A DNA stretch of 26,140 bases, taken from a virus. A program made the translations under genes and the position numbers. The stretch is taken from positions 1 through 26,140 of IMG/VR virus record IMGVR_UViG_3300044655_000097; one strand, 5' to 3'. Of this stretch, positions 2,049-24,040 are shown piece after piece. Numbering within the stretch: position 1 is the stretch's first letter; each line of letters opens with the position of its first letter. The notes under the pieces are model-generated. The model saw nothing but the letters and a program-made list of their open reading frames with translations, made no database searches and was not told the DNA's origin.

Positions 2049-2348
2049 ATGGACCTAATCTCACGAACCATACTCGGCTACACGGCAGAGGTCGTCGGAG
2101 TCAGCCCCGATGACATCTTGAGCGAAGTCAAGACCCAAGAACTGGTGCTGGCTCGCAGCATCTTTGCCGACATCGCTTATTCGGAGTACCTCTACACCTA
2201 CTGCCAAATCGGGCGAATCATCAAGAGGAACCACGCAACGGTCATGCACAACCTCGAAATCCTTGCGATAAACATGAGAGCAAGGCCCGACATTAAATTT
2301 CTTCGTACACAAGTTTTAAACAGGACACGAGATTTTTTGCAACATTAG
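2049..2348 (+). CDS. DnaA domain IV-like DNA-binding protein
   Basis: The 99-residue protein resembles the C-terminal domain of DnaA, which binds DnaA boxes in the major groove. It has the helix VSPDDILSEVKTQELVLARSIF (about 18-39), then YCQIGRIIKRNHATVMHNLEIL (51-72), aligning with the DnaA signature IGR..GGRDHSTVLH. The AAA+ ATPase part of DnaA is absent. By analogy it could mark a phage origin, titrate or block host DnaA, or act as a transcription regulator; the sequence does not decide. The ATG at 2049 is chosen over 2004 because it directly follows the DUF551 stop and matches the domain edge. Confidence 0.7.
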   Translation: MDLISRTILGYTAEVVGVSPDDILSEVKTQELVLARSIFADIAYSEYLYTYCQIGRIIKRNHATVMHNLEILAINMRARPDIKFLRTQVLNRTRDFLQH

Positions 2349-2369
2349 CGAGAACCCCCTTCATCTTTG
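2337..2369 (+). promoter_or_regulatory. Possible promoter for the sigma-like gene
   Basis: TTG at 2337-2339 and CATCTTTG at 2362-2369 are separated by 22 bases, within the range reported for Bacteroidota promoters (TTG...TAnnTTTG), though the -7 box has C for the first T. The box ends five bases before the GTG start at 2375, so the transcript would begin at or next to the start codon. Confidence 0.4.
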
Positions 2370-2374
2370 CGTGA

Positions 2375-2923
2375 GTGAACGCAGAGGCTACCATCCTTGA
2401 CCTGTATCGAAGCGGAGAAATCCGCAAGGCTTGCCTCACCATTACGGGGGGCAATCCGCTTTGGAAGGACCTCGAACAAGAGGTCGTCCTCATTCTGCTC
2501 GAAAAAGACCCCGACAAGATTACCAAGATGCAGGTCCAAGGCTACCTGCGTTTTTACATCGTTCGGCTGATAATGAACTTGTACCGGGGCAACAACAACC
2601 AGTTTGCTAAGAAGTACCGACATCACGACGAGAGGGTTGAAGTGGACCCCGAAACCCAAGAACTGGGCAAGGACTACGACTCCCTGCTCGATGACCTTTG
2701 GGCCATTGCCCAGCAAGAGATGGACTCTTGGGCCAAGGACGGAGCGTTCCCGTACGACAAAGAACTGCTGAACCTGCTCATGCAGACAGGGAACATGAAG
2801 GCCATGTCAAGAGAAACGGGCATTCCGTACCGGTCCATTATCTACTCAATCGAACAGGCCAAGGCTAAAATTAAAACCGCAATCGAAGCCAATGGATATA
2901 CTGGTCTATCCCATCCTCATTAG
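2375..2923 (+). CDS. Sigma-70-like RNA polymerase sigma factor (divergent)
   Basis: The 182-residue protein has the two-part layout of a small sigma factor. Residues 31-72 (KDLEQEVVLILLEK...YLRFYIVRLIMNLYRGNN) resemble region 2, and 138-166 (TGNMKAMSRETGIPYRSIIYSIEQAKAKI) form a helix-turn-helix like region 4. An acidic linker (about 87-120) lies between. Similar proteins are common in Bacteroidota phages and are presumed to redirect host RNA polymerase to phage promoters. The start is a GTG because a TGA sits in frame immediately upstream and the first internal ATG would remove most of region 2. Possible partners are the repeated ACATTTAC promoters of the late genes. A different helix-turn-helix regulator is the main alternative. 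Confidence 0.55.
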   Translation: MNAEATILDLYRSGEIRKACLTITGGNPLWKDLEQEVVLILLEKDPDKITKMQVQGYLRFYIVRLIMNLYRGNNNQFAKKYRHHDERVEVDPETQELGKDYDSLLDDLWAIAQQEMDSWAKDGAFPYDKELLNLLMQTGNMKAMSRETGIPYRSIIYSIEQAKAKIKTAIEANGYTGLSHPH

Positions 2924-3143
2924 TGCCTTGGCGACCCTTGCGGTCGTGGAGTTCCGGGTCCTGCCTTCGTGGTTCTACGCTTTGCCCTTTGCGAAGCGAA
3001 AGCCGTTTTCGTGCATGACCTGCTTCGGCTTTTGGCTTGGCTTTGCCCTGACCCTGCCAACCTGCCAATGGTACTTGGCCCCAATCCTTGGCCTCGCCTC
3101 ATCTGCCACCGCAATAATCATCCGGGAATGGACCTTCAAATGA
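2892..3143 (+). CDS. Small membrane protein with CxxC motif
   Basis: The 83-residue protein has a hydrophobic N-terminal helix (about 5-28), a central cationic stretch AKRKPFSCMTCFGFW, and a second hydrophobic region (about 48-78). The C-M-T-C pair before an FW is reminiscent of small phage membrane proteins of the DUF1360 kind, of unknown role. Possible jobs are membrane remodelling, superinfection exclusion or a lysis accessory; none is shown. It overlaps the sigma-like gene by 32 bases and the next gene by an ATGA. Confidence 0.6.
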   Translation: MDILVYPILISALATLAVVEFRVLPSWFYALPFAKRKPFSCMTCFGFWLGFALTLPTCQWYLAPILGLASSATAIIIREWTFK

Positions 3144-3409
3144 CCAACGACCAGTTCATCGTTGCCCAAAAGCATCGCAAGTATTGGGACCAATATGTGG
3201 CATCCCTGACCATGCGACTGCCACCCGATGCCGTTGGGGAACTGCAAGCCATCCTGACCGCTCATGGACGACCGCCCACAAACTGGTGGTGTGCGGACTG
3301 CGTAAAATCGGCTCTCCAATACATTTACCTGCAAGCGGACTTGTTCCTCGAAGCCAACCAAAACACCATAACGTACCCACTGAATGCCAACCCCGAAGGC
3401 GAAGGATGA
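3140..3409 (+). CDS. Small hypothetical protein with WCADC motif
   Basis: An 89-residue protein from the ATG at 3140, which forms an ATGA overlap with the preceding stop; the longer reading from 2969 would run through the whole membrane-protein gene. The middle part has RLPPDAVGELQAILTAHGRPP and then NWWCADCVKSALQYIYLQ, which looks like a helical domain with a possible zinc-binding pair. No family is recognised with confidence. Confidence 0.6.
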   Translation: MTNDQFIVAQKHRKYWDQYVASLTMRLPPDAVGELQAILTAHGRPPTNWWCADCVKSALQYIYLQADLFLEANQNTITYPLNANPEGEG

Positions 3410-3572
3410 CGAAGCCCAAGTGCAGGCTCGGATGGATTCGCTAATGATGGTGATTACGACCCTGTGCGACTGCATCGGAGCGGTGGACGATTCCAATGCC
3501 CCGAATGCATTTGCCGTGAAGATGAAGATAGTGGACAAGATTGACGAACTCATAGATAAAATCGAATACTAA
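3384..3572 (+). CDS. Small helical hypothetical protein
   Basis: A 62-residue protein with a charged N-terminus (MPTPKAKDDEAQVQARM) and two probable helices, the second being KMKIVDKIDELIDKIEY. Its start lies inside the end of the previous gene (26-base overlap), and its stop shares a base with the ATG of the small terminase gene, which supports its being a real member of the train. Position directly before the terminase genes is suggestive of an early/late boundary protein, but no function can be named. Confidence 0.55.
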   Translation: MPTPKAKDDEAQVQARMDSLMMVITTLCDCIGAVDDSNAPNAFAVKMKIVDKIDELIDKIEY

Positions 3573-3994
3573 TGGGAACCAGCAAGGGCAACGGCAAATA
3601 CATTGAAACCCCCGAAAAGATGTGGGAGCACTTTGAAGCATACCGATGGCAGGTCAAGAACAACCCAAGGCTCAAGACGGTATTCCCCGGCAAGGATGCT
3701 ATTCCCCAATACGAACCCTTGGAGCGTCCGTTGACCTTGGAAGGCTTTGAGAACTGGTGTGCGGATGCAGATATAATTGAGGACCTTGGGGCCTATTTTA
3801 CAAACAGGGACAAGCGATATGACGACTATGTAGCCATCTGCTCGCGTATAAGGCGAACCATCCGTCAAGACCAAATTGAGGGGGGCATGGTTGGTCAGTA
3901 CAACCCATCCATCACTCAACGCCTCAACAACCTCGTGGAGCGTCAGGAGAACACGGTCCACATCGAGCAGCCCCTATTCCCCGACAATGACTGA
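3572..3994 (+). CDS. Terminase small subunit (GP3 DNA-packaging family)
   Basis: The 140-residue protein matches the layout of the gp3-type packaging family: YIETPEKMWEHFEAYRW at the N-terminus, then PLERPLTLEGFENWC, then an acidic segment with DYVAICSRIRRTIRQDQIEGGMVGQYNPSITQRLNNLVE. In this family the small subunit binds viral DNA at the packaging start and delivers it to the large terminase. Its position two genes before the large terminase supports the call. It overlaps the methyltransferase gene by eight bases. Confidence 0.85.
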   Translation: MGTSKGNGKYIETPEKMWEHFEAYRWQVKNNPRLKTVFPGKDAIPQYEPLERPLTLEGFENWCADADIIEDLGAYFTNRDKRYDDYVAICSRIRRTIRQDQIEGGMVGQYNPSITQRLNNLVERQENTVHIEQPLFPDND

Positions 3995-5231
3995 TAAACT
4001 AACCCTGCATCATGGCGACTGCTTGGAGGTGCTTCGTTCACTACCTGACTGCTCCGTTGATTCGGTTGTAACCGACCCGCCTTACGGGTTGTCCTTCATG
4101 GGGAAGCGGTGGGACTATGATGTGCCAAGCGTTGAGGTCTGGGCCGAGTGCCTTCGTGTCTTGAAGCCGGGCGGTCATCTTCTTGCATTTGCAGGAACGA
4201 GGACGCAGCACCGAATGGCGGTAAGGATTGAGGACGCAGGCTTTGAGATTCGGGACATGATTGCTTGGGTGTACGGGTCGGGGTTCCCGAAGTCGTTGGA
4301 CGTGAGCAAGGCGATTGATAAGGCGGCGGGTGCCGAGCGTGAGGTGGTGGGCAATAACCCGACATTCAGAAAGATGCAAGAAAACGCATCTAATTACAAT
4401 TTGCAAAGAAACGAGTTCATCACCGCCCCCGCCACCCCCGAAGCAAAGCAATGGCAAGGCTGGGGGACTGCACTCAAACCCGCACTCGAACCGATTACAG
4501 TGGCTCGGAAGCCCTTGATTGGCACGGTAGCCGAGAACGTCCTGCAACACGGGACGGGTGCGATTAACGTGGATGGGGGCAGGGTAGGGACGGAGGATAA
4601 AATTGATTTTGAAAGAAAGGAAAACGGCATAACTCAATCAGGATGGAAGGATGTAAATAGAAATCCCTATGAACAGCACTCCGAAGGCCGCTGGCCCGCC
4701 AACTTCATCCACGATGGGAGCGAGGAGGTAATGGGGCTGTTTCCGCAGGCTGGCGGTGGATTCGGCAAGCGCGGCGGGAGGAATGGTGCAACCGTTGGCG
4801 ATTACGGCATGGGTGCGACGATGGAAACTGTTGGCTATGGCGACTCCGGCAGCGCCGCTCGCTTCTTCTACTGCGCCAAGGCAAGCAAAGCGGATAGGGA
4901 CGAAGGGTGTGAGAAATTGCAAGAGCGTTCTGCGGGAGAATGCGTGGATCGGGTTGAAGGAAGCGCAGGGATGGAAAGCCCAAGGGCAGGGGCAGGCAGG
5001 ACAAGCGGATCACGCAACCACCACCCAACCGTCAAGCCCACCGACCTCATGCGATACCTCTGCCGACTTGTAACCCCCCCAAACGGAATCGTCCTTGACC
5101 CGTTTATGGGGTCAGGCTCAACAGGCAAGGCAGCGATGCTGGAAGGCTTTGCGTTTGTCGGGATAGAACGGGAAGCAGAGTACATCGACATCGCCAAGGC
5201 TCGCATTCAATCCGCAGTCGGCTTGCTTTAA
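3987..5231 (+). CDS. DNA methyltransferase (N6-adenine or N4-cytosine, beta class)
   Basis: A 414-residue enzyme that transfers a methyl group from SAM to adenine N6 or cytosine N4. Catalytic motif IV, DPPY, is at 30-33 and comes first. A long middle part (about 140-340) with many Gly residues is the probable target-recognition region. HPTVKP and then DPFMGSGST at 371-379 (SAM-binding motif I) follow. This IV-to-I order defines the beta class. I chose the ATG at 3987 because the longer frame from 3876 runs through the small terminase gene. In phages such enzymes usually protect DNA against host restriction or mark it for packaging; placement between the two terminase genes is consistent with either. 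No partner restriction enzyme is evident next to it. The target sequence cannot be read from the protein. Confidence 0.9.
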   Translation: MTDKLTLHHGDCLEVLRSLPDCSVDSVVTDPPYGLSFMGKRWDYDVPSVEVWAECLRVLKPGGHLLAFAGTRTQHRMAVRIEDAGFEIRDMIAWVYGSGFPKSLDVSKAIDKAAGAEREVVGNNPTFRKMQENASNYNLQRNEFITAPATPEAKQWQGWGTALKPALEPITVARKPLIGTVAENVLQHGTGAINVDGGRVGTEDKIDFERKENGITQSGWKDVNRNPYEQHSEGRWPANFIHDGSEEVMGLFPQAGGGFGKRGGRNGATVGDYGMGATMETVGYGDSGSAARFFYCAKASKADRDEGCEKLQERSAGECVDRVEGSAGMESPRAGAGRTSGSRNHHPTVKPTDLMRYLCRLVTPPNGIVLDPFMGSGSTGKAAMLEGFAFVGIEREAEYIDIAKARIQSAVGLL

Positions 5232-6403
5232 TGTTTACCCTCACGACCGCTATCAGGCGAATCCGTCGGATGACGGCCCGGAAGAAGGTCATCCAAGGCG
5301 GAACAAGTGCAGGCAAGACCCTCGCCATCCTTGCGGTCCTAATCGACATCGCAGCCAAGAACAAGACCGAGATATCGGTCGTGTCCGAATCCATCCCGCA
5401 CCTACGGAGGGGAGCAATCAAAGACTTTGCCAAGGTCATGCAATGGACGGGCCGATGGGTCGCAGACCGATGGAACAAGACCCTGCTCACCTATCACTTC
5501 GCCAACGGTTCAATCATCGAGTTCTTTTCTGCTGATTCCGAGGCAAGGCTCCGAGGCGCAAGGAGGCAGGTCGTCTACATCAACGAGGCCAACAACATCG
5601 ACTTTGAATCCTACTACCAACTCGCCATCCGTACAAGCGAGGCCATCTACATCGACTTCAACCCGACGCATGAGTTTTGGGCGCACACGGAGGTCCTGCC
5701 CGAACAGGATGCAGAACTGATAATCCTTACCTACAACGACAACGAGGCCCTGCCTGATACCATCAAGAGGGACATCGAACTGAACCGCACCAAAGCCGAA
5801 ACGTCTGCATACTGGGCGAACTGGTGGAAGGTCTACGGCCTCGGTCAGGTCGGGACGCTTCAGGGTGCGATATACGAGGACTTCGAGGTCGTGGAGGGTA
5901 TCGATGTCAGCCGAGCCAAATTCGTCGCCTTAGGGCTTGACTGGGGTTTTAGCAACGACCCAACCGCACTCGTAGCAATATACCGCCAAGGGGACTGCCT
6001 GCTCATCCAAGAACTGCTCTACTCCACGGGCCTGACCAACCAAGACATCGCAGACAAACTGCGCTCGCTGGGCATTACCCGGGCTTGGGAGATCGTGGCG
6101 GATTCAGCCGAACCCAAGAGCATCGAGGAAATATACCGACTTGGCTTCAACATCAAGCCAGCGGAGAAAGGCCCCGATTCGGTCAGGAACGGGATAGACA
6201 TCCTGAAACGCTTTAAATTGCAGGTAACCAAGGACTCGACCAACCTCATCAAGGAATTGCGGTCCTACACTTGGGCCACCGACAAAGAGGGCAAGAACAC
6301 AGGGGTCCCGATTGACTCGTTCAACCACGCCTGCGATGCGATGCGGTATGTGGCACTCAACAAGTTAAGAGTAAGCAACTCAGGGAAGTATGTTGTCGTG
6401 TAA
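5231..6403 (+). CDS. Terminase large subunit
   Basis: A 390-residue packaging motor and nuclease. The ATPase part has Walker A GGTSAGKT (23-30) and a Walker B-like strand VVYINEA with Glu119. The C-terminal nuclease has the usual three acidic positions: LGLDWG with Asp237, VADSAEP with Asp291 and HACDAM with Asp369, as in PBSX/terminase_3-type proteins. It cuts concatemeric DNA and drives it into the prohead through the portal. The length is slightly short but complete, with no frame break. The start codon shares one base with the methyltransferase stop (TAATG). The portal gene, normally close by, lies about 14 kb downstream. Confidence 0.93.
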   Translation: MFTLTTAIRRIRRMTARKKVIQGGTSAGKTLAILAVLIDIAAKNKTEISVVSESIPHLRRGAIKDFAKVMQWTGRWVADRWNKTLLTYHFANGSIIEFFSADSEARLRGARRQVVYINEANNIDFESYYQLAIRTSEAIYIDFNPTHEFWAHTEVLPEQDAELIILTYNDNEALPDTIKRDIELNRTKAETSAYWANWWKVYGLGQVGTLQGAIYEDFEVVEGIDVSRAKFVALGLDWGFSNDPTALVAIYRQGDCLLIQELLYSTGLTNQDIADKLRSLGITRAWEIVADSAEPKSIEEIYRLGFNIKPAEKGPDSVRNGIDILKRFKLQVTKDSTNLIKELRSYTWATDKEGKNTGVPIDSFNHACDAMRYVALNKLRVSNSGKYVVV

Positions 6404-6408
6404 CTTTG
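6401..6408 (+). promoter_or_regulatory. Possible -7 promoter box before the sugar cassette
   Basis: TAACTTTG is an exact match to TAnnTTTG. It overlaps the terminase stop codon and ends four bases before the ATG at 6413. No TTG lies 17-23 bases upstream, so only half a promoter is seen. The short spacing to the start is like that of the other candidate promoters in this window. Confidence 0.4.
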
Positions 6409-6514: not shown

Positions 6515-7164
6515 AAGTCATCCACTACTACCACGTTTATTGCGGAGGGAACTGGCAGTTAATCCTTAACCAGCACATGATGGCGGTATGCAACTATGGC
6601 CTCATCAATGTCTTGGATGAGATAAGGGTCGGCATCGTCGGTCCACCCGAACAACGCAAAGCGGTCAAGGAGGTGCTGGAGAACTCGATGGTAGCCGATA
6701 AGGTCAAGGTCGTGGTAACCCGGACCAACGCTTGGGAGCAGGCGACCCTGACCGAGATGTACCGGGCCTCGCAGGAAGAGGAAGCCGTGTACCTGTACGC
6801 CCACACGAAGGGGGCAAGCGACCCATCGCTTATCAACCAGTTGTGGAATCGCAGCATGACTTTCTTCAACGTCGTGGCTTGGGAACGCTGCCTGCAACTG
6901 CTGGAAGGAGTGGATGCAGTCGGCTGCCATTGGATAACCAAGGAGCAGTTCCCTCACATGGCTGACCACAACAACCCCGACGGCTACCCCTATTTTGGTG
7001 GAACCTATTGGTGGGCCAAGTCATCCCACATCAAGGAACTGGGCGAACCTGTACGAGAACACCGCTGGCAAGCCGAACATTGGATTGGAAAGAAGCCCGA
7101 CACGAAGGTCCACGACTCCAACCCCGGATGGCCTTCACCCGAACGCTTTGTAATCACTTTTTAA
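6511..7164 (+). CDS. Glycosyltransferase-like protein
   Basis: A 217-residue protein starting MKVIHYYHVYCGGNW. It has a beta strand and loop YLYAHTKGAS (94-103), then NRSMTFFNVVAWERC, DAVGCHWI (135-142), the aromatic YFGGTYWWAK (161-170), and near the end RWQAEHWIG. This arrangement is seen in uncharacterised GT-A-like glycosyltransferases in phages and capsule clusters; no clear DxD metal site is visible, so catalytic activity is not certain. It is translationally coupled to the membrane peptide before it and to the DUF3431-like gene after it. It probably transfers or prepares a sugar for a virion or host surface glycan together with Glf downstream. Confidence 0.55.
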   Translation: MKVIHYYHVYCGGNWQLILNQHMMAVCNYGLINVLDEIRVGIVGPPEQRKAVKEVLENSMVADKVKVVVTRTNAWEQATLTEMYRASQEEEAVYLYAHTKGASDPSLINQLWNRSMTFFNVVAWERCLQLLEGVDAVGCHWITKEQFPHMADHNNPDGYPYFGGTYWWAKSSHIKELGEPVREHRWQAEHWIGKKPDTKVHDSNPGWPSPERFVITF

Positions 7165-7736
7165 TGCAGATAGTCGTTGCACGGTATAACGAGGACTTGA
7201 CTTGGCTCAATCCTTACAAGCAGCATTGCGTGATCTACAACAAAGGGGAAGCCATTGACCTCCCAAGCATTGCCTTGACCAACATCGGAAGGGAATCGCA
7301 TACCTACCTGCACCACATCATTGAGAACTACAATCGCCTTGACGATGTAACCCTTTTCACGCAGGGCAAGCCCTTTGACCATTGCCCAAAAATTACGGAC
7401 CACATTGACACCATGCTTGATGAAGGGATGGACATTCCCTTCTTAAACCTATCGCAATGGGTCCTACAAATTCACGGGTTAAACTGCAACGCTTGGCCTT
7501 ACCATTGTTGGCCGAACCTTTTGCCGGAAGTCGTTGAGTTTTTATTCGGGCAAACGATTGAGCGGCAGGTTTGGTTTGGAGCAGGGGCAATCTTTGCGGT
7601 TCGCAAGGAAGCCATCCAGCAACGGCCCTTGAAGTTCTATCAAAGAGCAATCACACTACTACCACCAATGGTTGACTGTCAAGGCTACGGCCATGCCTTT
7701 GAACGGCTATGGCCCACAATATTCAACGCACTATGA
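7164..7736 (+). CDS. DUF3431-like protein (probable sugar-related enzyme)
   Basis: The 190-residue protein begins MQIVVARYNEDLTWL and contains YNKG, then NIGRESHTYLHHIIENY (40-56) and LFTQGKPFDH (65-74), the characteristic string of DUF3431 proteins. These are small, possibly glycosyltransferase-like enzymes of unknown activity. A later WFGAGAIFAVRKEAI segment resembles the acceptor-side end of GT-A folds. The ATG at 7164 overlaps the previous stop by one base (TAATG); the longer reading from 7008 runs through the previous gene. Its setting between a glycosyltransferase-like gene, a methyltransferase and Glf points to glycan work. Confidence 0.65.
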   Translation: MQIVVARYNEDLTWLNPYKQHCVIYNKGEAIDLPSIALTNIGRESHTYLHHIIENYNRLDDVTLFTQGKPFDHCPKITDHIDTMLDEGMDIPFLNLSQWVLQIHGLNCNAWPYHCWPNLLPEVVEFLFGQTIERQVWFGAGAIFAVRKEAIQQRPLKFYQRAITLLPPMVDCQGYGHAFERLWPTIFNAL

Positions 7737-8395
7737 AAGACTTATTTTCACGACTATCCGAGTTAGATATTGACTCAATGTCAACCGAAGAACTGGAGCG
7801 TTTACTACCTGAATTTGGGATGAACAACGAGATTCTTCACGAAATGCCGAGCCACCTGTCCGACTACTTCGGGAAGGGCTTGCGGTTTTGGCAGTACCCC
7901 AACCAATTCGCAAAACTGCTCAAGCACATTCACGGCAAGCCCATCAACTCCTACCTTGAGATTGGATGCCGATGGGGTGGGACTTTCGTGATAATCAACG
8001 AAGTCCTCAAGAAAACTAACAAGCAACTAAAGTCCTTTGCGGTGGACCTTATTGAGCCATCCGAAATCCTGAACCAGTACAACGATTATTGGCCCTTTAC
8101 TTACATAGAGGGGAACTCGATGTTGTTCCAAACCATTAGCCCCAAACTACCGAGCCAAGTTGACTTCGTGTTTATTGATGGCGACCATTCCTACGAAGGG
8201 GTCAGGCGTGATTTTGAGAACTCGCTTACTTTAAACCCTGCCTACATCATGCTGCATGACATCAATAGCGTTGCCTGTCCGGGTGTTGTTCACTTTTGGA
8301 ACGAGATAAAGGGCAACTACAAGCACCGCGAATTTATTGAGGGGTACGCATCGGTCAGGGATAACTACTTGGGAATCGGCATCATTGAACTATGA
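7733..8395 (+). CDS. Class I SAM-dependent methyltransferase
   Basis: The 220-residue protein has SAM-binding motif I YLEIGCRWGGT (74-84), an acidic strand end in FAVDLIEP, and FIDGDHSYEGVRRDF (147-161), a set typical of Methyltransf_24/CmcI-type enzymes that methylate small molecules or sugars. LHDINS further on is also usual in that group. The likely substrate is a sugar hydroxyl or carboxyl given the neighbours, but this is inference. Overlaps of ATGA with both neighbours place it inside the sugar cassette. Protein methylation is an alternative. Confidence 0.75.
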   Translation: MKDLFSRLSELDIDSMSTEELERLLPEFGMNNEILHEMPSHLSDYFGKGLRFWQYPNQFAKLLKHIHGKPINSYLEIGCRWGGTFVIINEVLKKTNKQLKSFAVDLIEPSEILNQYNDYWPFTYIEGNSMLFQTISPKLPSQVDFVFIDGDHSYEGVRRDFENSLTLNPAYIMLHDINSVACPGVVHFWNEIKGNYKHREFIEGYASVRDNYLGIGIIEL

Positions 8396-9477
8396 GTTAC
8401 GACTTCGCCATTGTGGGTTCGGGTTTCTTCGGTGCGATTTGCGCCAAGCACTTGCACGACCAAGGCAAGAAGGTTGTGGTTATTGAGAAACGCAACCACA
8501 TTGGCGGTAACTGCTACACCGAGGTCAAGAGCGGTATAACGGTTCACACTTACGGACCGCACATCTTTCACACGAACAAGAAAGAGATTTGGGAATGGAT
8601 TAACCAATATGCAGAGTTCAAGCCTATCCGCTTGCAGGTCATGGCTACGGCCAAGGGAGGCATTTATTCCCTTCCTTTCTCGATGCACACCTTCAGTCAG
8701 GTCTATGGTGCTACAACACCCCAAGAGGCCATGCGTTGCATTGAACGGGATTCGGATTGCGCTGACGATGGCAGCCTTAAATCTGCTGCTATCAAGAAAG
8801 TCGGTAGAAAGGTTTACGAGTTGCTAATCAAGGGCTATACCGAAAAGCAATGGATGAAGCCTGCAACGGACCTCCCGGCAAGCATTGTAAATCGCTTGCC
8901 CGTTCGGATGACCTACGACAACAATTACTTCAACGACCAATTCCAAGGCATCCCGGTTGGTGGCTACACGCCAATCTTTGAGAAACTACTTGAGGGGGTT
9001 GACTTGCTGCTCAACACGGACTTCTTTACCGACCCATTGCCGGATGCCGAGAACCTAATCTACACGGGTCCGATTGACAAGTTCTTTGACTACCAGTTTG
9101 GTCCTTTGGAGTATAAAACAATTAGGCACGAACACGAATGGGTTTTTTCAAACAACGTGCAGGGATGCCCCGTGATGAACTACACGGATGCCGAGGTCCC
9201 ATACACCCGAAAGATTGAACACAAGCATTTTGCCCAAGAGGAAGGGTACGGCTCTTGGGTCAGCACCGAATACCCCCAAGAGTATATTCCCGACAAGACC
9301 GACCCCTACTACCCGGTCAACGACCAAGCGAACAATAAGGTATATCAGTCCTACAAAGAATTAGCCGATTCAACTCCGAATGTTTACTTTGGAGGAAGGC
9401 TCGGTCAGTACAAGTACTTTGATATGCACCAAGTCATCGAGGAAGCACTAACCTTCTGCAAAACCAAACTCCCATGA
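8392..9477 (+). CDS. glf: UDP-galactopyranose mutase
   Basis: A 361-residue flavoenzyme that converts UDP-galactopyranose to UDP-galactofuranose, close to the usual bacterial length of about 370. Family marks are intact: the FAD-binding GSGFFG (9-14), VVIEKRNHIGGNCYTE, TYGPHIFHTN, a central RMTYDNNYFNDQFQGIP segment, NYTDAEVPYTR, and the C-terminal GGRLGQYKYFDM that contacts FAD. Reduced FAD acts as the nucleophile in this family. In bacteria it supplies Galf for O-antigen, capsule or arabinogalactan. In a phage it probably feeds a virion or host-surface glycan made by the glycosyltransferases at 6511 and 18744. It overlaps the next gene by ATGA. Confidence 0.95.
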   Translation: MSYDFAIVGSGFFGAICAKHLHDQGKKVVVIEKRNHIGGNCYTEVKSGITVHTYGPHIFHTNKKEIWEWINQYAEFKPIRLQVMATAKGGIYSLPFSMHTFSQVYGATTPQEAMRCIERDSDCADDGSLKSAAIKKVGRKVYELLIKGYTEKQWMKPATDLPASIVNRLPVRMTYDNNYFNDQFQGIPVGGYTPIFEKLLEGVDLLLNTDFFTDPLPDAENLIYTGPIDKFFDYQFGPLEYKTIRHEHEWVFSNNVQGCPVMNYTDAEVPYTRKIEHKHFAQEEGYGSWVSTEYPQEYIPDKTDPYYPVNDQANNKVYQSYKELADSTPNVYFGGRLGQYKYFDMHQVIEEALTFCKTKLP

Positions 9478-10043: not shown

Positions 10044-10219
10044 GCCCTCTCGCAGGGTACGGATGGCTGATGGTGGTGTGGAGGATGGCAAATAAGGACG
10101 TTCTCAAATTCGATGCCATCTTCGCTATGAAGGCGGTGGAGTTCCTGAACTATGCCCTGCTGATTCACGACATCTTGGAAGCAGAGAGGATGGAAGCGGA
10201 GCGGGCGAGGCGCAGATAG
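9474..10219 (+). CDS. Tail assembly chaperone, frameshifted long form (GT-like)
   Basis: Predicted product of -1 frameshifting at the T-run: join of 9474..9962 and 9962..10219, 163 plus 85 residues, 248 in all. The -1 frame extension has a normal protein composition: FERLFQAPDDEGRGADVSPL, then GWLMVVWRM, then VLKFDAIFAMKAVEFLNYA and a charged helical tail EAERMEAERARRR. It has no strong start of its own near the overlap; an ATG at about 10069 could allow separate translation, the main alternative. In lambda the T part links the chaperone to tail tube subunits. Confidence 0.5.
9956..9965 (+). promoter_or_regulatory. -1 ribosomal frameshift slippery site
   Basis: In the reading frame of the 9474 gene the bases read AGT TTT TTT TTG, so both T_TTT_TTT (9956-9962) and T_TTT_TTG (9959-9965) match the X_XXY_YYZ rule for tandem -1 slippage. 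The -1 frame is open from here to 10219. I did not find a convincing downstream hairpin by eye. Confidence 0.6.
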
Positions 10220-10246
10220 ACACATTCCAGCACGGGGGACATTTAC
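10217..10246 (+). promoter_or_regulatory. ACATTTAC-type promoter, site 1
   Basis: GACATTTAC at 10238-10246 lies directly before the gene at 10251. An ATTC at 10224-10227 sits 10 bases upstream of the box, as in sites 3 and 4. The -33 position (10217-10219) is TAG rather than TTG. The -7 box ends five bases before the start codon. Confidence 0.45.
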
Positions 10247-10250
10247 CCAC

Positions 10251-10898
10251 ATGGAAACAACCATCCTCGCCAATGGTAAGCCCGTAAACAAGTTCGGTAG
10301 CGGTTCGATGAAAGGCATTGACGAAACCGCTTTGGAGGGGATTGGTTCAGTTGTCGGCCCCAAAGGTGGAGGCAAGTCGCCAACCCACGACGTGCTGGTC
10401 AAGTGGATTGAACGGGTCATCGAACTTGCGAAGAAGAACCTCGAAGCAGCGAACGCAAATGCAGGGGGAACGCTCTCGGCATCCATCTCACCCGAAGACA
10501 TCGAACTATCCGCAAAGCAAATCGTGGTGGCTATCATGGCTAACCCCTACTGGAAGTATGTGGACCAAGGGGTGCGAGGTAAGTCCTCAAGCGTAAAGGC
10601 TCCGAGGTCGCCATTTCAATACAGGGACAAGTACCCACCTGCCCAAGCCATGGCCGATTGGATAGCCAACAAGGAAAAAGCAGTTGTGCCAACCTATTCC
10701 CGTGAACTCAAGCGGATGCGAACCAAGCAGGAGCAGGGATTGGTGGATGGCAGGTCGGTTGCCTATTGGGTATTCCAGCGAGGAACACGGGCCACAAACT
10801 TCATGTCTAACGCTCTATCCCCCGAAATGATAGACGTTTTGGTGAACACAATCGCTGAAACCCTTGGCAAATCCATAAGCGTAGCAACCAAACTATAA
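10251..10898 (+). CDS. Virion morphogenesis protein, possibly HK97 gp10-like
   Basis: The 215-residue protein contains YWKYVDQGVRGK (about 102-113), SPFQYRDKYPPAQAMADWI, and a C-terminal RSVAYWVFQRGTRATNFMSNALS followed by a helix. A VD.GV.G motif, an F/Y-rich centre and a G.....FM..AL end recall HK97 gp10-type tail completion proteins, which sit at the head-tail joint, but the match is loose. A candidate promoter ends just before the ATG, making this the first gene of a tail block. Gly-rich residues 34-42 look like a flexible N-terminus. Confidence 0.5.
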   Translation: METTILANGKPVNKFGSGSMKGIDETALEGIGSVVGPKGGGKSPTHDVLVKWIERVIELAKKNLEAANANAGGTLSASISPEDIELSAKQIVVAIMANPYWKYVDQGVRGKSSSVKAPRSPFQYRDKYPPAQAMADWIANKEKAVVPTYSRELKRMRTKQEQGLVDGRSVAYWVFQRGTRATNFMSNALSPEMIDVLVNTIAETLGKSISVATKL

Positions 10899-12093: not shown

Positions 12094-14345
12094 GCGTAAC
12101 CCTCATCGCCTACCCTCTCAACGATTCCAACGCAGAGGTTCCCTACGTCCTTGATACCATGGGCGAAATTGACATCGCCCTGACTTTTTCGGTGGAGGAC
12201 ATTGCCGACATAACCAAGCGGAGGGGGTCGTTCTCCAAGACCATCACGTTGCCTAATACGACAACAAATCGGGCTTGCTTCGGGTACGCTTACAACATCC
12301 AGTCCTTCGTGGGTGGATTCCAACCGAACAAGAAGATTCGTGCTGCGATGTGGGAGGATGGGGTCCAAGTGTTCAGCGGAGTGTTGCAACTCCTGTCCAT
12401 GGCTAAAATCAAGGGACAGGTAACCTACGAAGTCGGGCTATTCACGGACAACGTGAGCCTCTTCAAATCCATTGAGGGTAATATGCTCGTCAACACGGCT
12501 GGCGTTACAGGGATGAACCACGTCCCCAATTCGGGCCACGTTTCGGGAACTTGGACGGCAAGCGGTACGGCTTCGAGCGGTTACGTTTACGGCTTGGTGG
12601 ATTCAGCAGGGTTTAACGACGTGCAGGCCTTGGGTAATTTTGACGTTCCTTGGTGGAGGCTTGGGCCTTCTATCTACGTCAAGAAATTAGTGGACCTCAT
12701 CTTTACCGAGGCAGGATTCCGCTATTCATCCAACTTCTTTAACTCTGCGACCTTCGGCAAATTGGTCATCCCGTATGCAAACGGCTTGATGGCGACCAAC
12801 CTGTCGGGGTCCAACATTTTCACTCAAGCAACGGGTTCGGTCAGCGCATCGCTCGCAGGGCCAGCCATCAACTTTGAGTTCAGCAGGGACAACGTATCGC
12901 CCTTCTATGATAATAGCGGTTATTGGGTCGCATCGTCCAGCACCTTCGTCGCTCCATCGGTTCCGACCCGTTGGAACATCAACCTATCCTACGTTGTCAG
13001 CGGTGTAACCTTCGGGCTTGATGGCGTTGCAGGAGGCGACTTTACGGTATTCAACACGGCCACAAGTTCAACCCTTGCCTTGGTTGGAACGGTTGACCTT
13101 ACCCGGTCAAGTTATCCGCTTTCGGGGAATGTTTACTTTGAGAACGTAACCATCCCAGCAAATGCGGTCGTCAAGTTCAGGTACGATGAAACGGAGGGAG
13201 CCACGTCGATAACCTTCAAATCAGGAGGCACATTGCAGATGATTTGCCTCGAAAACCCTCAAAGCATCGGGACCTTGGATATGCGGACCGCACTCCCTGC
13301 TGACGTAAAGCAGAGCGACCTGTTGGAGGACTTGCAGAAGATGTTCAACCTCCAGTTCATGCCGGACCCACAAGACCCGAAACTGCTATACATCGAGCCT
13401 TGGGTGGATTTCTACTCCAGCGGTTCGGTGGACTGGTCGCAGAAGGCAGACGAGAATCAGGAGCAGGTCCTGACCAATGGCGACCCGAACGCCTACACCA
13501 ACGTCATCTTCAAGTACAAGGACATGGGCGATTACCTGTCCAAGACCTACAAGCAGTCCTATCCGCTTGCACGGGAAGGCTACGGAGGCCGAATCTTCAA
13601 CACGGCCAACTTTTACGGCAAGGGCGACAAGATTGTAGAAACCATCGCAGGGACACTTATTCCCGCATCGTTCACGACGGACAAAATAGTAGGCAGGACT
13701 TGGGACTTGGAGGGAACCTTCACAAGCGGAAACATCAAGGCCCTGCAAACAGGTTACCGCTTGGCTCAATACAACCTCATCACCCCACCGACCGAATGGC
13801 GTTATCAGTACGGGGTAACAGGCACGACTGGCATTCCTTTGGCCGTTCCTCAAACACGGCTGCCCTTCATCAGCCACATTGACAACCCCTACGCCCCGAC
13901 GATGGACTTGGCCTTTGGTCAGCCTCGGACGGTCTTCTACAACGCAGTCAACGCATCGGGTAGTTTTATCAACTACACCAACAACAACCTTTACAACAAA
14001 TATTGGTTGAATTACATCAACGAAACCGTGTCAAGCGAGGCGTTGCAGTTGGAATTGACGATGATGATTAACGCAGCAGATGTTTATCAACTTGACTTCC
14101 GCAAGCCGATTTACTATGGAGGCATCCGCTGGCGATTGCTTGAAGTGCGAGATTACTTGGTTGGGCAGCAGAAGCCTTGTCGGGTAACCCTTCGGAGGAT
14201 TCTAAACCTCGCTGAATTTGCTCCCACAGTAACGACACCGATAGCGAATGACCCATCCGCAAGGTACAACGGACCTATCGACCCCGACCCAGCAGACCCC
14301 GACTACGAACCACCCATCAACCCTGAACTACCCTCCGAAGGTTAA
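12090..14345 (+). CDS. Large tail or baseplate protein
   Basis: A 751-residue protein that starts with a small folded region, IDIALTFSVEDIADITKRRGSFSKTITLP (about 27-55), recognisable in Bacteroidota phage tail proteins. FGYAYNIQSFVGGF and a long beta-rich body follow, with SDLLEDLQKMFNLQFMPD and a later PIYYGGIRWRLLEVRDYLVG segment. The last 25 or so residues are rich in Pro and Asp (DPDPADPDYEPP), a probable disordered tail. It is the second-largest class of protein here and is probably a tail tip or hub component; no enzymatic domain is seen. Confidence 0.6.
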   Translation: MSVTLIAYPLNDSNAEVPYVLDTMGEIDIALTFSVEDIADITKRRGSFSKTITLPNTTTNRACFGYAYNIQSFVGGFQPNKKIRAAMWEDGVQVFSGVLQLLSMAKIKGQVTYEVGLFTDNVSLFKSIEGNMLVNTAGVTGMNHVPNSGHVSGTWTASGTASSGYVYGLVDSAGFNDVQALGNFDVPWWRLGPSIYVKKLVDLIFTEAGFRYSSNFFNSATFGKLVIPYANGLMATNLSGSNIFTQATGSVSASLAGPAINFEFSRDNVSPFYDNSGYWVASSSTFVAPSVPTRWNINLSYVVSGVTFGLDGVAGGDFTVFNTATSSTLALVGTVDLTRSSYPLSGNVYFENVTIPANAVVKFRYDETEGATSITFKSGGTLQMICLENPQSIGTLDMRTALPADVKQSDLLEDLQKMFNLQFMPDPQDPKLLYIEPWVDFYSSGSVDWSQKADENQEQVLTNGDPNAYTNVIFKYKDMGDYLSKTYKQSYPLAREGYGGRIFNTANFYGKGDKIVETIAGTLIPASFTTDKIVGRTWDLEGTFTSGNIKALQTGYRLAQYNLITPPTEWRYQYGVTGTTGIPLAVPQTRLPFISHIDNPYAPTMDLAFGQPRTVFYNAVNASGSFINYTNNNLYNKYWLNYINETVSSEALQLELTMMINAADVYQLDFRKPIYYGGIRWRLLEVRDYLVGQQKPCRVTLRRILNLAEFAPTVTTPIANDPSARYNGPIDPDPADPDYEPPINPELPSEG

Positions 14346-14348
14346 ACT

Positions 14349-15854
14349 ATGGCAGTTACTAAAGAAATCGTCCTCGAAGTAGGACTTAAAGACTCAACAG
14401 GTCAAGGTGCGGAATCCGCAAAGAAGCGGCTCCGTGAGATGCAACGTGCGCTTGTTGACCTTGCAGTCGCAGGCAAAGAGAGTACCGAAGAATTTCGGAA
14501 GTTAGAAGCCGAGGCAGGGGAACTATCCGACACTATTGGCGATGTTAGCCAAAGGGTCAAGAACATGGGTTCGGACACCAAAAATATTGAGGCGTTCACT
14601 CAAGCGGTTCAAGGTGTTGCTGCTGGTTTCCAAATCGCTCAAGGTGCTGCTGCATTGTTTGGCGAGGAAAACGAGGACATCCAAAAGGCGTTGTTGCAGG
14701 TCAATGCGACCATGGCTATTGCCAATGGAATCATGCAAGTAAGCACCTTGCTGCAAAAGGAATCGGCTATCTCAATGACGGCCAATAGGATTGCAACGGC
14801 CCTATATGATAAAACGCTGAAGGGAAGCGTTGTTAGCCTTGGATTATTTAGAACCGCCTTAATTGCAACAGGTATTGGTGCAGCGATTGTTGCGGTTGGT
14901 TTGCTCGTTGAGAATTGGGATAAACTCACCGCAGCGGTCCGCAGGTTCCTGAATCTACCCGACCCGGCCATCGCAGCGAAAGCGAGGGAGGACGCAGCCC
15001 TTCGTGAAGAAGCAGCCCTATCCAATTACCGGGACGCATACGAGAGGCACACGGACGCACAAATCAAAAAAGAAGAGGAAAGGGACCGCAAGCAAAAAGA
15101 GGCAAGTCAAAAACGATTGGAGCGTCTAAAGTCCGAGAACGATGCGATTATCAAGTTTGTTGCAGACCTCAACCTTGAACTCTACGGAATGGAGTTGGAT
15201 AGGCAGGCCGAGGAAGAGGATTTGCAAATAAAAGGAATGCGAGAAGAGGCAGCAAGGAGAGTCCGTCAAGCAAAGGTAACCAATGATATTGCTAAGAAAA
15301 GAGCAGATAACGAGAAGCAGATTCAGGAAGAAATAACCAAGTCAAACGTAGATATTAGCAGGGCAGGCTTTCAATCGTTAGGCGAACTGGCAACCGCCTT
15401 TGCAGGTCAATCCGAGGCTTCGCAAAAGAAGGCGTTTCAAGTCAACAAGGCAGCGGGGATTGCCCAAGCCATCATTGACACCTACGCTGCTGCTCAAGGG
15501 GCGTTCAAATCTCAATTGTCCGTGCCTGACGTTACCGCCCCGATTCGTGCCAAGATTGCAGCAGGGATAGCGATTGCTGCTGGTTTGGCAAGGGTTGCTG
15601 CAATTAGCAAAACGCAATTTAGGACGACATCTTCGGGCGTTCCTTCTGCAACGCCAAGCGGTGGTGGCGGTGGAGAGGTTGCACCTCCTCCAATCTTTGC
15701 TAACCCTCAAACGACCATGCTTGGAACCGATGGTGCTGCAATGGGCCAAGGCCAAGGCTCATCACCAATGCGAGCCTATGTCGTGGAACGGGACATCACC
15801 CAAAGCACTCGGAGGGTTCGGAGGTTGGAGGAATTTGCAACTTTAGGGGCCTAA
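14349..15854 (+). CDS. Tail tape measure protein
   Basis: A 501-residue, mostly helical protein. The N-terminal 1-80 is a charged helical region, 81-190 is Ala/Gly-rich and includes a membrane-like segment LIATGIGAAIVAVGLLVENW (171-190), 215-345 is a strongly charged coiled coil (EERDRKQKEASQKRLERL), and 365-410 is Ala-rich. This is the classic tape measure layout, and position after tail proteins and the chaperone agrees. At about 0.15 nm per residue it would set a tail of roughly 75 nm. The C-terminal hydrophobic and Gly/Pro-rich stretch is usual for release on infection. Confidence 0.75.
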   Translation: MAVTKEIVLEVGLKDSTGQGAESAKKRLREMQRALVDLAVAGKESTEEFRKLEAEAGELSDTIGDVSQRVKNMGSDTKNIEAFTQAVQGVAAGFQIAQGAAALFGEENEDIQKALLQVNATMAIANGIMQVSTLLQKESAISMTANRIATALYDKTLKGSVVSLGLFRTALIATGIGAAIVAVGLLVENWDKLTAAVRRFLNLPDPAIAAKAREDAALREEAALSNYRDAYERHTDAQIKKEEERDRKQKEASQKRLERLKSENDAIIKFVADLNLELYGMELDRQAEEEDLQIKGMREEAARRVRQAKVTNDIAKKRADNEKQIQEEITKSNVDISRAGFQSLGELATAFAGQSEASQKKAFQVNKAAGIAQAIIDTYAAAQGAFKSQLSVPDVTAPIRAKIAAGIAIAAGLARVAAISKTQFRTTSSGVPSATPSGGGGGEVAPPPIFANPQTTMLGTDGAAMGQGQGSSPMRAYVVERDITQSTRRVRRLEEFATLGA

Positions 15855-15864
15855 CCACATTTAC
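15835..15864 (+). promoter_or_regulatory. ACATTTAC-type promoter, site 2
   Basis: TTG at 15835-15837, 18 bases, then CACATTTAC at 15856-15864, ending four bases before the ATG at 15869. The TTG lies within the tape measure gene and the box in the 14-base gap after it. It would start transcription of the capsid block. Confidence 0.5.
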
Positions 15865-15868
15865 CTGC

Positions 15869-16462
15869 ATGGAACTACCCATTTATAGGATGACCGTTGA
15901 CGAGGTGGATGAAGGGGTTCAATTCGTGGCCCTGACCGATATGCCAGCCATCGAGCGGCCATTCCAAGCATTCAGCAAGGCCAAGCAGAAGTTCACCGAA
16001 ACAGGCGAACGCAGGGTCCTCACGGGTCCGCTCATGCTTGCAGATACGCCCATCTTCCGAAAGGACGAAACATACGGGGAATACTACGTCGTATTCGACA
16101 AAGCCACCATCCGCAAGATAGTCCAAAAGTATTTCAAGCAAGGCAACCAGCACAACGTCAATGCTTACCACAACGCTGAACTGGATGGCGTGTTCATGTT
16201 TGAGTCCTACATAACCGACTCCGAGCGTGGTATCATGCCACCCAAAGGCTACGAGGACACCCCCGACGGATCTTGGTTCGGCTCCTTCAAGGTTGAGAAC
16301 GACGAGGTGTGGGACAACCGCAACCTCTTCCGGGGTTTCTCCGTTGAGGGCCTGTTCGGAATGGACAAAACCGAATCCGAACTGGAGGTCGCACTCGCTG
16401 GCTTGGCCGATGAACTTACCGCTTTTTTGCAACAATTAACCCCCACCTACAAATCCCACTAA
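15869..16462 (+). CDS. Prohead protease, XkdF-like
   Basis: The 197-residue protein matches the XkdF-type serine protease family, which matures HK97-fold capsids: LTGPLMLADTPIFRKDE (51-67), GEYYVVFDKATIRKIVQKYFKQG (70-92), the active-site His candidate in AYHNAELDG (His101), KGYEDTPDGSWFGSFKV, and Ser candidate in FRGFSVEG (Ser158). In this herpes-protease-like fold a His and a Ser act together. It lies directly before the scaffold-like and capsid genes, the usual place. It probably clips the scaffold or capsid N-terminus. Confidence 0.8.
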   Translation: MELPIYRMTVDEVDEGVQFVALTDMPAIERPFQAFSKAKQKFTETGERRVLTGPLMLADTPIFRKDETYGEYYVVFDKATIRKIVQKYFKQGNQHNVNAYHNAELDGVFMFESYITDSERGIMPPKGYEDTPDGSWFGSFKVENDEVWDNRNLFRGFSVEGLFGMDKTESELEVALAGLADELTAFLQQLTPTYKSH

Positions 16463-18743: not shown

Positions 18744-19820
18744 ATGAAGATTTGCATCGTTTACAACGCCCATCCAACCGGGTGCAGTTATTACCGCCTC
18801 GAAATGCCGAACGCTTACCTTGGCGACAATTACCCGGAGTTCGATTACGTCTGCGTTGAGAACATCACCACGATTAGCGACGAGGGGTTGAAGTCGATTG
18901 ACCTGTTCCTGTTCAGCCGGCTTTGGTGTCAGGGAAGCATGGAGCAAGTTGAAAATGTTTACAAAGCATTGACCCAATACGGAGCGAAAGTCATCCTTGA
19001 CTTGGACGACTACTGGGTGCTTGAATCGGGCCACATCATGTACCGCCACTATCACCAAACCAAACTCGCAGAGGTCATCCGCAAGCACATCAAATTGGCT
19101 GACTGGGTAACTTGTACCACCGAGCATCTTGCTGCTCGTATACGGCCTCTAAACGCCAATGTGAGCATCTTGCAGAACGAACCCTACGAAGCCTATCAGC
19201 AGTTCATCCCCAACCCCGACGAAGAACCCGACAAGCACCTCGTCAAGTTCGGTTGGTTCGGTGGGGCGCAGCACGGAGAGGACATGGAACTGCTCCGTGA
19301 GGGGATGCAAAAGTTACGCTGGGACGCAAACTTGGATGGCAAGTACCGCCTCTATCTCGGAGGGTGGAACGACAACAACCCCGTTTACGAGGGCTACGAG
19401 AAAATCATCAGCGACCAAGGGAACAATCCGAACTACGGACGCATTCAAGCAGCGGATATTTACTCCTACGTCGGGGGCTACAACTTCGTGAACGTTACCC
19501 TTGCACCTTTGCGAGATACCAAGTTCAACAAACTCAAGTCCGAGTTGAAGGTCGTAGAGGCAGGGTGGATGAACAAGGCCATCATCGCAAGCGAAACCAT
19601 CCCTTACACGGACGTAATCAAGCACGGGGAGAACGGGTTTCTCGTACCTTACAACAAGCCGAAAGATTGGTACAAGTACATCAAGCAGTTGATCCTTGAC
19701 CCCGACCTGCGTAAGGGCTTGGCTGACAACCTAACGAGGGACATCAAGAAGCGGTTCAACGTAGCCGAAACCGCCAAGAAGCGGGCCGAACTATACAGGC
19801 AGATTGGGCGCAAATTGTGA
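18744..19820 (+). CDS. GT4-type glycosyltransferase
   Basis: A 358-residue GT-B-fold enzyme. The N-terminal half has MKICIVYNAHPTGCSYYRLEMP and the strand VILDLDDYW (83-91). The C-terminal half has FGWFGGAQHGED, a YLGGW strand, LAPLRDTKFNKLKSELKVVEAGWM with the usual sugar-nucleotide-binding Glu, and IIASETIPY with HGENGFLVPY, characteristic of GT group 1/4. It transfers a sugar from a nucleotide donor; UDP-Galf from Glf would be a natural donor but this is inference. The ATG at 18744 is preferred over 18699, which lies in the hairpin. Its position amid virion genes suggests virion glycosylation. Confidence 0.85.
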   Translation: MKICIVYNAHPTGCSYYRLEMPNAYLGDNYPEFDYVCVENITTISDEGLKSIDLFLFSRLWCQGSMEQVENVYKALTQYGAKVILDLDDYWVLESGHIMYRHYHQTKLAEVIRKHIKLADWVTCTTEHLAARIRPLNANVSILQNEPYEAYQQFIPNPDEEPDKHLVKFGWFGGAQHGEDMELLREGMQKLRWDANLDGKYRLYLGGWNDNNPVYEGYEKIISDQGNNPNYGRIQAADIYSYVGGYNFVNVTLAPLRDTKFNKLKSELKVVEAGWMNKAIIASETIPYTDVIKHGENGFLVPYNKPKDWYKYIKQLILDPDLRKGLADNLTRDIKKRFNVAETAKKRAELYRQIGRKL

Positions 19821-19844
19821 AATTCGGGGGCATCGCACATTTAC
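19815..19844 (+). promoter_or_regulatory. ACATTTAC-type promoter, site 3
   Basis: TTGTGAAATTC at 19815-19825, ten bases, then CACATTTAC at 19836-19844, followed by AA. TTG to box is 18 bases, and the box ends six bases before the ATG at 19851. Site 4 shares the same 11-mer and spacing exactly. The TTG overlaps the GT4 stop. Confidence 0.55.
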
Positions 19845-23525: not shown

Positions 23526-24029
23526 ATGTCATGGATAAAAATCAAGCAAGCCCTGCTGGACCTTGCAAATGCTCATCCACAGGTCAACTCCTTCGGGACG
23601 GGCGACCCGCTTGCGGTAGGCACGGACAACACCATCAACCTGCGAACCCCAAGCCGTGAGCGAATCGTCTATCCGCTCGTTTTTGCGGACGTGCAGTCTG
23701 CAAATACTGACGCTGGGACTTTGGACTTGGTGGTTGGGGTTTACTTTTCTGACCGTGTTGAGTCCATCAAGCCGATGGGCGGAGTGGTTTCGGGCAGCCC
23801 TACGTTGGGTTGGCAGGACAACGAGGACGAGGTCCTAAGCGACCAGTTACAAATCGCACAGGACTTCATTTCAAGCCTTACAAACGACCCAAGCGAAGAC
23901 TGGACCCTCTCATCCAGCGTGAGCCTTACGAGATTCGTAGAGAGCCGGGATGACCGCACGGCTGGGTGGCAGGCGACGATGACCTTTGAGATTCCTTACT
24001 CTCACTCGGTTTGTGAAATTCCCACATAA
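23526..24029 (+). CDS. Tail terminator or head-tail closure-like protein
   Basis: The 167-residue protein begins MSWIKIKQALLDLANAHPQVNSF and has RIVYPLVFADVQSANTDAGTLDLVVGVYFSDRV, a DNEDEVLSDQLQIAQDFISSL helix, and WTLSSSVSLTRFVESRDDRTAGWQATMTFEIPY. The order of a helix, edge strands and a final W...M.FEI strand is that of tail terminator/neck proteins. Its position after the connector supports that. A 42-base gap precedes it. A competing 57-residue frame at 23486-23659 is judged a shadow. Confidence 0.6.
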   Translation: MSWIKIKQALLDLANAHPQVNSFGTGDPLAVGTDNTINLRTPSRERIVYPLVFADVQSANTDAGTLDLVVGVYFSDRVESIKPMGGVVSGSPTLGWQDNEDEVLSDQLQIAQDFISSLTNDPSEDWTLSSSVSLTRFVESRDDRTAGWQATMTFEIPYSHSVCEIPT

Positions 24030-24040
24030 AAGACATTTAC
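24011..24040 (+). promoter_or_regulatory. ACATTTAC-type promoter, site 4
   Basis: TTGTGAAATTC at 24011-24021, ten bases, then GACATTTAC at 24032-24040, followed by AA. The 11-mer, the spacing and the AA after the box match site 3. The box ends 16 bases before the ATG at 24057, so this leader is longer than at the other sites. Confidence 0.55.

Follow-up and report, generated by a model that had tools for sequence, protein, structure and literature searches.

An ECF-type sigma factor gene in a freshwater Bacteroidota phage clade and its probable role in late transcription

What directs transcription of the late genes in a phage whose late start signals differ from those of its host? The question is raised by the window analysed here, a 26,140-nt stretch of viral DNA whose source virus infects freshwater Bacteroidota-type bacteria, and it has two parts: (i) whether the 182-aa protein encoded at 2375 is a sigma factor; and (ii) whether this protein, rather than the primary sigma of the host, reads the late promoters. 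Phage late sigmas are of a known kind; for example, T4 gp55 and SPO1 gp28 and gp34 redirect the host core polymerase to later phage promoters. In these Bacteroidota phages late-gene activation appears to be undescribed, and no paper on it was found in the literature searched, which comprised open papers only. We think it quite probable that the phage redirects the host RNA polymerase to its late genes by means of an ECF-type sigma factor of its own; core binding, the match between the sigma and ACATTTAC, the timing and the start sites are the parts of this account that we infer. The features concerned are collected in Table 1.

Table 1. Positions of the genes and promoter elements discussed in the text
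Feature	Position	Strand	Description
Stand-alone DnaA DNA-binding domain gene	2049-2348	+	directly before the sigma gene; PF08299, E 4.5e-11
Host-type -7 box of the sigma gene	2362-2369	+	CATCTTTG, 5 nt before GTG
Predicted ECF-type sigma factor gene	2375-2923	+	GTG start, 182 aa; profile and structure matches
Probable fifth late promoter	3299-3328	+	TGCGTAAAATC N11 ACATTTAC inside ORF 3140-3409, upstream of the terminase small subunit gene (3572)
Terminase small subunit gene, start of packaging module	3572-3994	+	phrog_606, E 5.6e-8
Terminase large subunit (TerL) gene	5231-6403	+	
Host-type box	6401-6408	+	TAACTTTG, 4 nt before ATG 6413 (33-codon ORF)
Predicted late promoter	10217-10246	+	TAGACACATTC (10217-10227), N11, ACATTTAC (10239-10246), 4 nt before ATG 10251
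Predicted late promoter	15835-15864	+	TTGCAACTTTA (15835-15845), N11, ACATTTAC (15857-15864), 4 nt before ATG 15869
Predicted late promoter	19815-19844	+	TTGTGAAATTC (19815-19825), N11, ACATTTAC (19837-19844), 6 nt before ATG 19851
Predicted late promoter	24011-24040	+	TTGTGAAATTC (24011-24021), N11, ACATTTAC (24033-24040), 16 nt before ATG 24057

The late boxes of the window are real and bipartite. The motif SACATTTAC occurs four times, always on the + strand (starts at 10238, 15856, 19836 and 24032, with the 8-mer ACATTTAC beginning one base later), as against 0.38 copies expected, and none of 100 shuffles reached four. All four copies precede late genes, and the gene at 15869 is a protease-like head gene. 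Exactly 22 nt upstream of each ACATTTAC box a second element begins, and at 19837 and 24033 the upstream 11-mers are identical in front of non-homologous genes. When the upstream elements were scored by leaving one out at a time, these two fell within genome fractions of <2e-5, followed by 10239 (0.007), 15857 (0.038) and 3321 (0.074), the last two being individually weak by this score. The copy at 3321 belongs to the probable fifth promoter, where the codons TGC GTA AAA and CAA TAC ATT TAC are identical in 80/80 best relatives while the spacer codons vary; the baseline for invariance among relatives is 8% of cases for GTA and 11% for ATT. Most late boxes elsewhere are retained in relatives, a minority of which carry a variant at 15857 (CATCTAC, CATTTCC) or 19837 (CATTTAGG). 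A DNA scan for the bipartite site returned at least 119 stretches, compared with 22 for a control spacing one base longer. Nearly all of the matches read were orthologues, from close relatives, of two promoters; the scan is therefore evidence of conservation and not a source of independent instances.

For the host -7 element, work on Flavobacterium johnsoniae gives TAHHTTTG; T-12, A-11, T-8, T-7, T-6 and G-5 hardly vary, and 4-5 nt separate the element from the start (PMC6847099). The preliminary description had claimed that the late boxes depart from the host consensus alike each time, and the claim holds: T-12 is replaced by G or C, and G-5 by A, at all four late genes, and none of the four SACATTTAC boxes belongs to the TAHHTTTG class of Bacteroidota primary-sigma promoters. 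It had also placed the sigma gene's own promoter nearer to the host consensus. Here too it was right: the box CATCTTTG is of host type and is conserved, with its ATCTTTG kept in 78/78 relatives, and a TTTG at 2336-2339, 22 nt apart from it, is a possible -33 element. Relatives that extend further upstream carry host-type boxes in their early region (TATCTTTG or TACCTTTG, TACATTTG, TAAATTTG). Over the whole window exact TANNTTTG shows no enrichment (11 copies against 12.9 expected); among these, the copy at 6401 is the clear promoter-like one, and it is retained wherever its surroundings are. The box types are thus split, with host-type boxes at the early genes and the sigma gene and ACATTTAC at the late genes, and the late start signal should be read poorly by the host's own sigma.

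It is nevertheless conceivable, though in our judgement unlikely, that the host primary sigma itself reads the late boxes as weak variants of its -7 element, perhaps with a phage activator such as the DnaA-domain protein, and that the phage sigma controls something else. ACATTTAC is still similar to the host box (nACATTTA against TAnnTTTG), retaining A-11 and the TTT; a TTG trinucleotide lies upstream at three of the late sites; and the DnaA-domain protein adjoins the sigma gene upstream. This reading has to contend, however, with the concerted change of T-12 and G-5 when early boxes fit the host consensus (PMC6847099), with an upstream element that is longer than TTTG and fixed in spacing, and with the homologous sigmas of other phages, which accompany clearly non-host late promoters.

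We return to the preferred reading, a phage sigma dedicated to late genes, and to the protein on which it depends. At least 311 stretches in IMG/VR encode relatives of the 182-aa protein, and conservation figures refer to the best 80 of these, in which protein identity to the window sigma is at least 97% (97-100%) and the DNA of the gene is 90-95% identical, except for two near-identical copies (99.4%). Most of the changes are therefore synonymous, a sign of strong purifying selection on the gene; ORF 2375-2923 is a real, strongly selected gene. The region 2-like and region 4-like parts with an acidic linker that had been described for its product are seen in the sequence: region 2 occupies approximately residues 3-82 (the region 2-like segment spans GNPLWKDLEQEVVL...YLRFYIVRLIMNLYR), the linker approximately 84-110 (10 D/E against 2 K/R) and region 4 approximately 100-175, with a C-terminal helix-turn-helix, KELLNLLMQTGNMKAMSRETGIPYRSIIYSIEQAKAKIK. 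This is the layout of ECF (group IV) sigmas, which have a region 2, a linker and a region 4 without regions 1.1 or 3.

Searches with the window protein itself gave no significant sigma match in Pfam, PHROGs, NCBIfam, PDB sequences or named phages (tblastn), and a direct search of genome contigs found no relative; the protein alone lies below the Pfam thresholds for Sigma70_r2 and Sigma70_r4 and below every family threshold searched. Passing such a threshold is not what defines an ECF sigma. There is, however, a weak direct PHROG match to phrog_31712 (E 0.21), which is gp33 of Nonlabens (Persicivirga) phage P12024S, a protein with the record note 'Sigma-70 region 2' and a score above the Pfam Sigma70_r2 threshold (25.2 against 24 bits). 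A BLASTP comparison of the window protein with gp33 gives E 2e-5 for this one pair, over region 2 only, and the two can be aligned over almost their full length with 23% identity. From gp33, and from an alignment query of gp33 relatives, homologues were reached at 80 diverse loci. A profile of this phage sigma family built without the window clade matches residues 16-171 of the window protein at E 4.2e-9, compared with E 3e-5 for the best of 5,000 shuffled window proteins. Matches to Sigma70_r2 were obtained for 36 of 46 aligned family members, and matches to the PHROG 'RNA polymerase sigma factor' for 33. Only two columns of that alignment, D32 and Q35, are invariant; they belong to the core-binding signature D-x-x-Q-E of region 2.2 (residues 32-36), of which the window protein keeps D32, Q35 and E36. 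The combined family profile in turn picks up solved ECF sigmas, with both domains covered (5uxx, E 4.6e-7; also SigL, SigW and SigE). By homology, then, it is close to certain that the 182-aa protein is an ECF-type sigma, and its place in the family was assigned from sequence homology, the promoter trait not being used.

Structure prediction points the same way. The AF2 model of the window protein is of low confidence overall (pLDDT 58.6, pTM 0.41) and weakest at residues 58-99, yet both regions 2 and 4 were recovered from it. Its leading structural matches in the PDB are almost all sigma factors, and five predicted viral structures match it at E <1e-3, the best being named 'RNA polymerase sigma-70 region 2'. 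Residues 103-176 fit region 4 of E. coli sigma-E on -35 DNA (2h27; Z 8.9, 1.8 A, 68 residues), and residues 1-76 fit region 2 of the ECF sigma-H (6kop; Z 7.5, 2.9 A, 73 residues). Because common helical arrangements can reach Z values such as these, the sequence profile is the main evidence for a sigma.

A sigma fold does not by itself make a working sigma, and the protein could be a sigma-derived regulator, such as a sigma appropriator, an anti-sigma or a co-activator. Its divergence, with no direct Pfam match, its enlarged region-2 loop and the low-confidence middle of the model would suit such a role, but we regard it as improbable, given that both domains and the D-x-x-Q-E signature are kept in a two-domain ECF layout and that the family is linked to bipartite promoters with ECF spacing.

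That link came from a prediction: if such sigmas drive late genes, other members of the family should have late promoters of their own. In P12024S, AAAACAAA-N13/14-CGTTAATA lies just before the CDSs at 3031, 5412, 23961, 25201 and 26802, with variants at 179 and 21280, and two further loci (L166 and L167), whose sigmas are 67% identical to gp33, have the same promoter. Across the family, the spacer between AAC and CGTT near ORF starts peaks at 16-17 nt (11% and 15%, against 2-3% elsewhere), with an additional peak for AAC at 10 nt from CGTT. The pattern AAC-N16/17-CGTT-N7..9-ATG has 36 unique occurrences in 909 kb of sigma loci (27/80 loci, 11/31 sigma clusters), compared with 0-7 for control patterns with altered spacings or scrambled cores, and none in the 358 kb of eight phages in which a profile search found no such gene. 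Because family loci share ancestry, the counts are partly dependent, and 11 of 31 clusters is the more cautious measure. The other 20 clusters have no strict AAC/CGTT promoter in the sequence examined, which for some includes little late sequence. Generic k-mer enrichment across the diverse contigs was uninformative, being swamped by A-rich start regions. The trait, AAC-N16/17-CGTT-N8-ATG, was found in this analysis and has no published definition.

After deduplication by core, 29 of these promoters are on the sigma strand downstream of the gene, two start within it and one lies downstream on the other strand; upstream of the gene there are none in the 365 kb searched. Host-type boxes on the sigma strand number 63 in 365 kb upstream as against 31 in 508 kb downstream, approximately a threefold higher density on the upstream side. 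In 67 of the 80 diverse loci the sigma gene lies 1-5 kb before TerL on the same strand, as it does in the window (2.9 kb). Extended in this way to diverse homologues at 80 loci, the co-occurrence check shows the sigma family accompanied by a dedicated class of late promoter. When genome contigs were searched with the family alignment, only one relative came up, in a MAG titled Bacteroidetes bacterium, and no AAC-CGTT promoter was found with it. Taken together, these observations make a dedicated late sigma well supported.

The family promoters mirror the type read by M. tuberculosis SigH, for which -35 GGAACA, -10 GTT and a rigid 17-bp spacer have been described (PMC6411747). With SigH-like geometry, and a CGTT-to-ATG distance that peaks sharply at 8 nt (30/58), family transcripts would start approximately one base before the ATG and be leaderless or nearly so; in F. 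johnsoniae, leaders exceed 10 nt in 87% of predicted transcripts (PMC6847099). The proximity of ACATTTAC to start codons, in a phylum without Shine-Dalgarno signals (PMC6847099), might instead suggest a translation-initiation signal, or a leftover of shared ancestry, and no promoter, but this is very improbable with distances to the ATG of 4, 4, 6 and 16 nt, one conserved copy in the middle of a gene, and an upstream element at a fixed 22 nt in non-homologous contexts.

Within the family, the window clade appears to have changed its specificity. No AAC-CGTT promoter was found before the ORFs of the window, and TTGTGAAATTC-N11-ACATTTAC occupies the same slot. At the genes at 10251 and 15869, ACATTTAC begins 12 nt before the ATG, the same start as CGTTAATA in P12024S, where the upstream element begins 21-22 nt before the -10 element; the geometry is therefore the same and the letters are different. 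Exact ACATTTAC near starts was found neither in other sigma clades nor in the eight phages without the gene, and in this comparison its occurrence before genes is confined to the window clade. The sigma differs as well: the segment from Q35 to the conserved Y61 has 26 residues in the window clade against 16-22 in other clades, with an 8-residue insertion where ECF sigmas have their -10 specificity loop, the element that reads the flipped -10 base (PMC6411747). The simplest reading of this correlation, which comes from one clade, is a joint change of sigma and promoters. It is likely, from one clade compared with the rest, that the window sigma reads the ACATTTAC promoters.

A motif without the gene would weigh against this. 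The sigma gene is present in 11 of 15 long records of relatives; the four without it (G003, G009, G010 and G011) are incomplete fragments whose coordinates end before its expected position. No counter-example was thus found among 15 long records, none of them a complete relative, and the absence of counter-examples is only moderately strong evidence. In records of relatives such as G008 (31,447 bases), the sigma gene and two box sites follow each other in a different order than in the window, which is what circular permutation of a genome of roughly 31 kb would give.

In the scheme that we propose, the host primary sigma would read the early promoters (TAHHTTTG) and the promoter of the sigma gene, CATCTTTG; in P12024S, early transcripts would be expected from TATATTTG boxes. 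The 182-aa sigma would then bind the host core polymerase through the D-x-x-Q-E signature of region 2, with region 4 reading the upstream element (TTGTGAAATTC and its variants) and region 2, with its enlarged loop, reading ACATTTAC. Transcription would begin at or beside the ATG, and late mRNAs would be leaderless or nearly so at the sites 4-6 nt from it. More broadly, and with somewhat less assurance, we lean towards the view that Bacteroidota phages widely share an ECF-type late sigma gene before their packaging genes and near-ATG starts from AAC-N16/17-CGTT, and that in the abundant freshwater window clade the sigma and all late promoters switched together to TTGTGAAATTC-N11-ACATTTAC, alongside the 8-residue loop insertion.

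The closest parallel is P12024S/L gp33 (phrog_31712), which, like the window protein, is a small two-domain sigma encoded between a VRR-NUC gene and terminase, and in P12024S, as in the window, late genes have a dedicated bipartite promoter just before the ATG. The promoters differ (AAC-N16/17-CGTTAATA against TTGTGAAATTC-N11-ACATTTAC), and the region-2 loop of gp33 is approximately 8 residues shorter. Bacterial ECF sigmas such as M. tuberculosis SigH and E. coli SigE likewise have regions 2 and 4 only; unlike them, the window sigma is phage-encoded and lies beside the packaging module, and unlike SigH-type promoters, those of the window clade lack the AAC and GTT cores. T4 late promoters have a lone -10 type element and need a clamp, whereas those of the window have two elements, ECF-like spacing and predicted starts at the start codon. 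In overall spacing the late promoters of the window are similar to the Bacteroidota primary-sigma promoter, TTTG / TAHHTTTG. Neither the family promoter class nor the specificity change of the window clade was found in the literature searched (open papers only).

The sigma gene and its predicted target promoters offer a concrete, testable answer to the question of late-gene activation for an abundant group of freshwater phages and for the cultured P12024S. If the scheme is correct, the family would provide a natural series in which sigma and promoter change in pairs, suited to the study of shifts in ECF specificity, as well as orthogonal promoter parts for Bacteroidota. It would also mean that near-leaderless late mRNAs occur systematically in a phylum that dispenses with Shine-Dalgarno signals.

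Several observations concern the neighbouring genes. The DnaA-domain protein could act in replication or regulation, and weak relatives of it are encoded approximately 2.5 kb before the sigma gene in two of the family loci (L182 and L238). Beside the terminase genes, 3987-5231 of the window holds a variable gene for an N6/N4 DNA methylase, with a similar start in only 8 relatives. At 7164-9474 there is a cassette of DUF3431, methyltransferase and UDP-galactopyranose mutase genes. Nearly all relatives lack it in their DNA matches, which pass directly from 7164 to 9474, marking a mosaic cargo region.

Other repeated elements were seen in the phages compared. In Flavobacterium phage Fpv5 (L384), which lacks the sigma gene, AACTTAAAA lies just upstream of 21/59 predicted genes and is possibly a translation or promoter signal. 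In Microcystis phage Mea-Yong924-1 (L163), AACACGCTGTCCTT is repeated upstream of 13127, 23807 and 28729 and is a candidate phage promoter or operator. Locus L203 has two identical 48-nt stretches, at approximately 13483-13530 and 13857-13904, upstream of neighbouring genes. In locus L022 (4836-4968; also in L041, L077 and others), the host-type box TAAATTTG is followed by approximately 120 nt that contain ACATTTACAATTAAACGC and a strong, terminator-like hairpin (z -2.3) before the next gene. The ACATTTAC copy at 4854 of this locus was discounted as a late promoter because of its setting, a short, hairpin-terminated stretch downstream of the host-type box. The stretch has no match in Rfam; a small RNA and an attenuated leader are candidate readings, and the 18-mer ACATTTACAATTAAACGC recurs at 24033 in the window.
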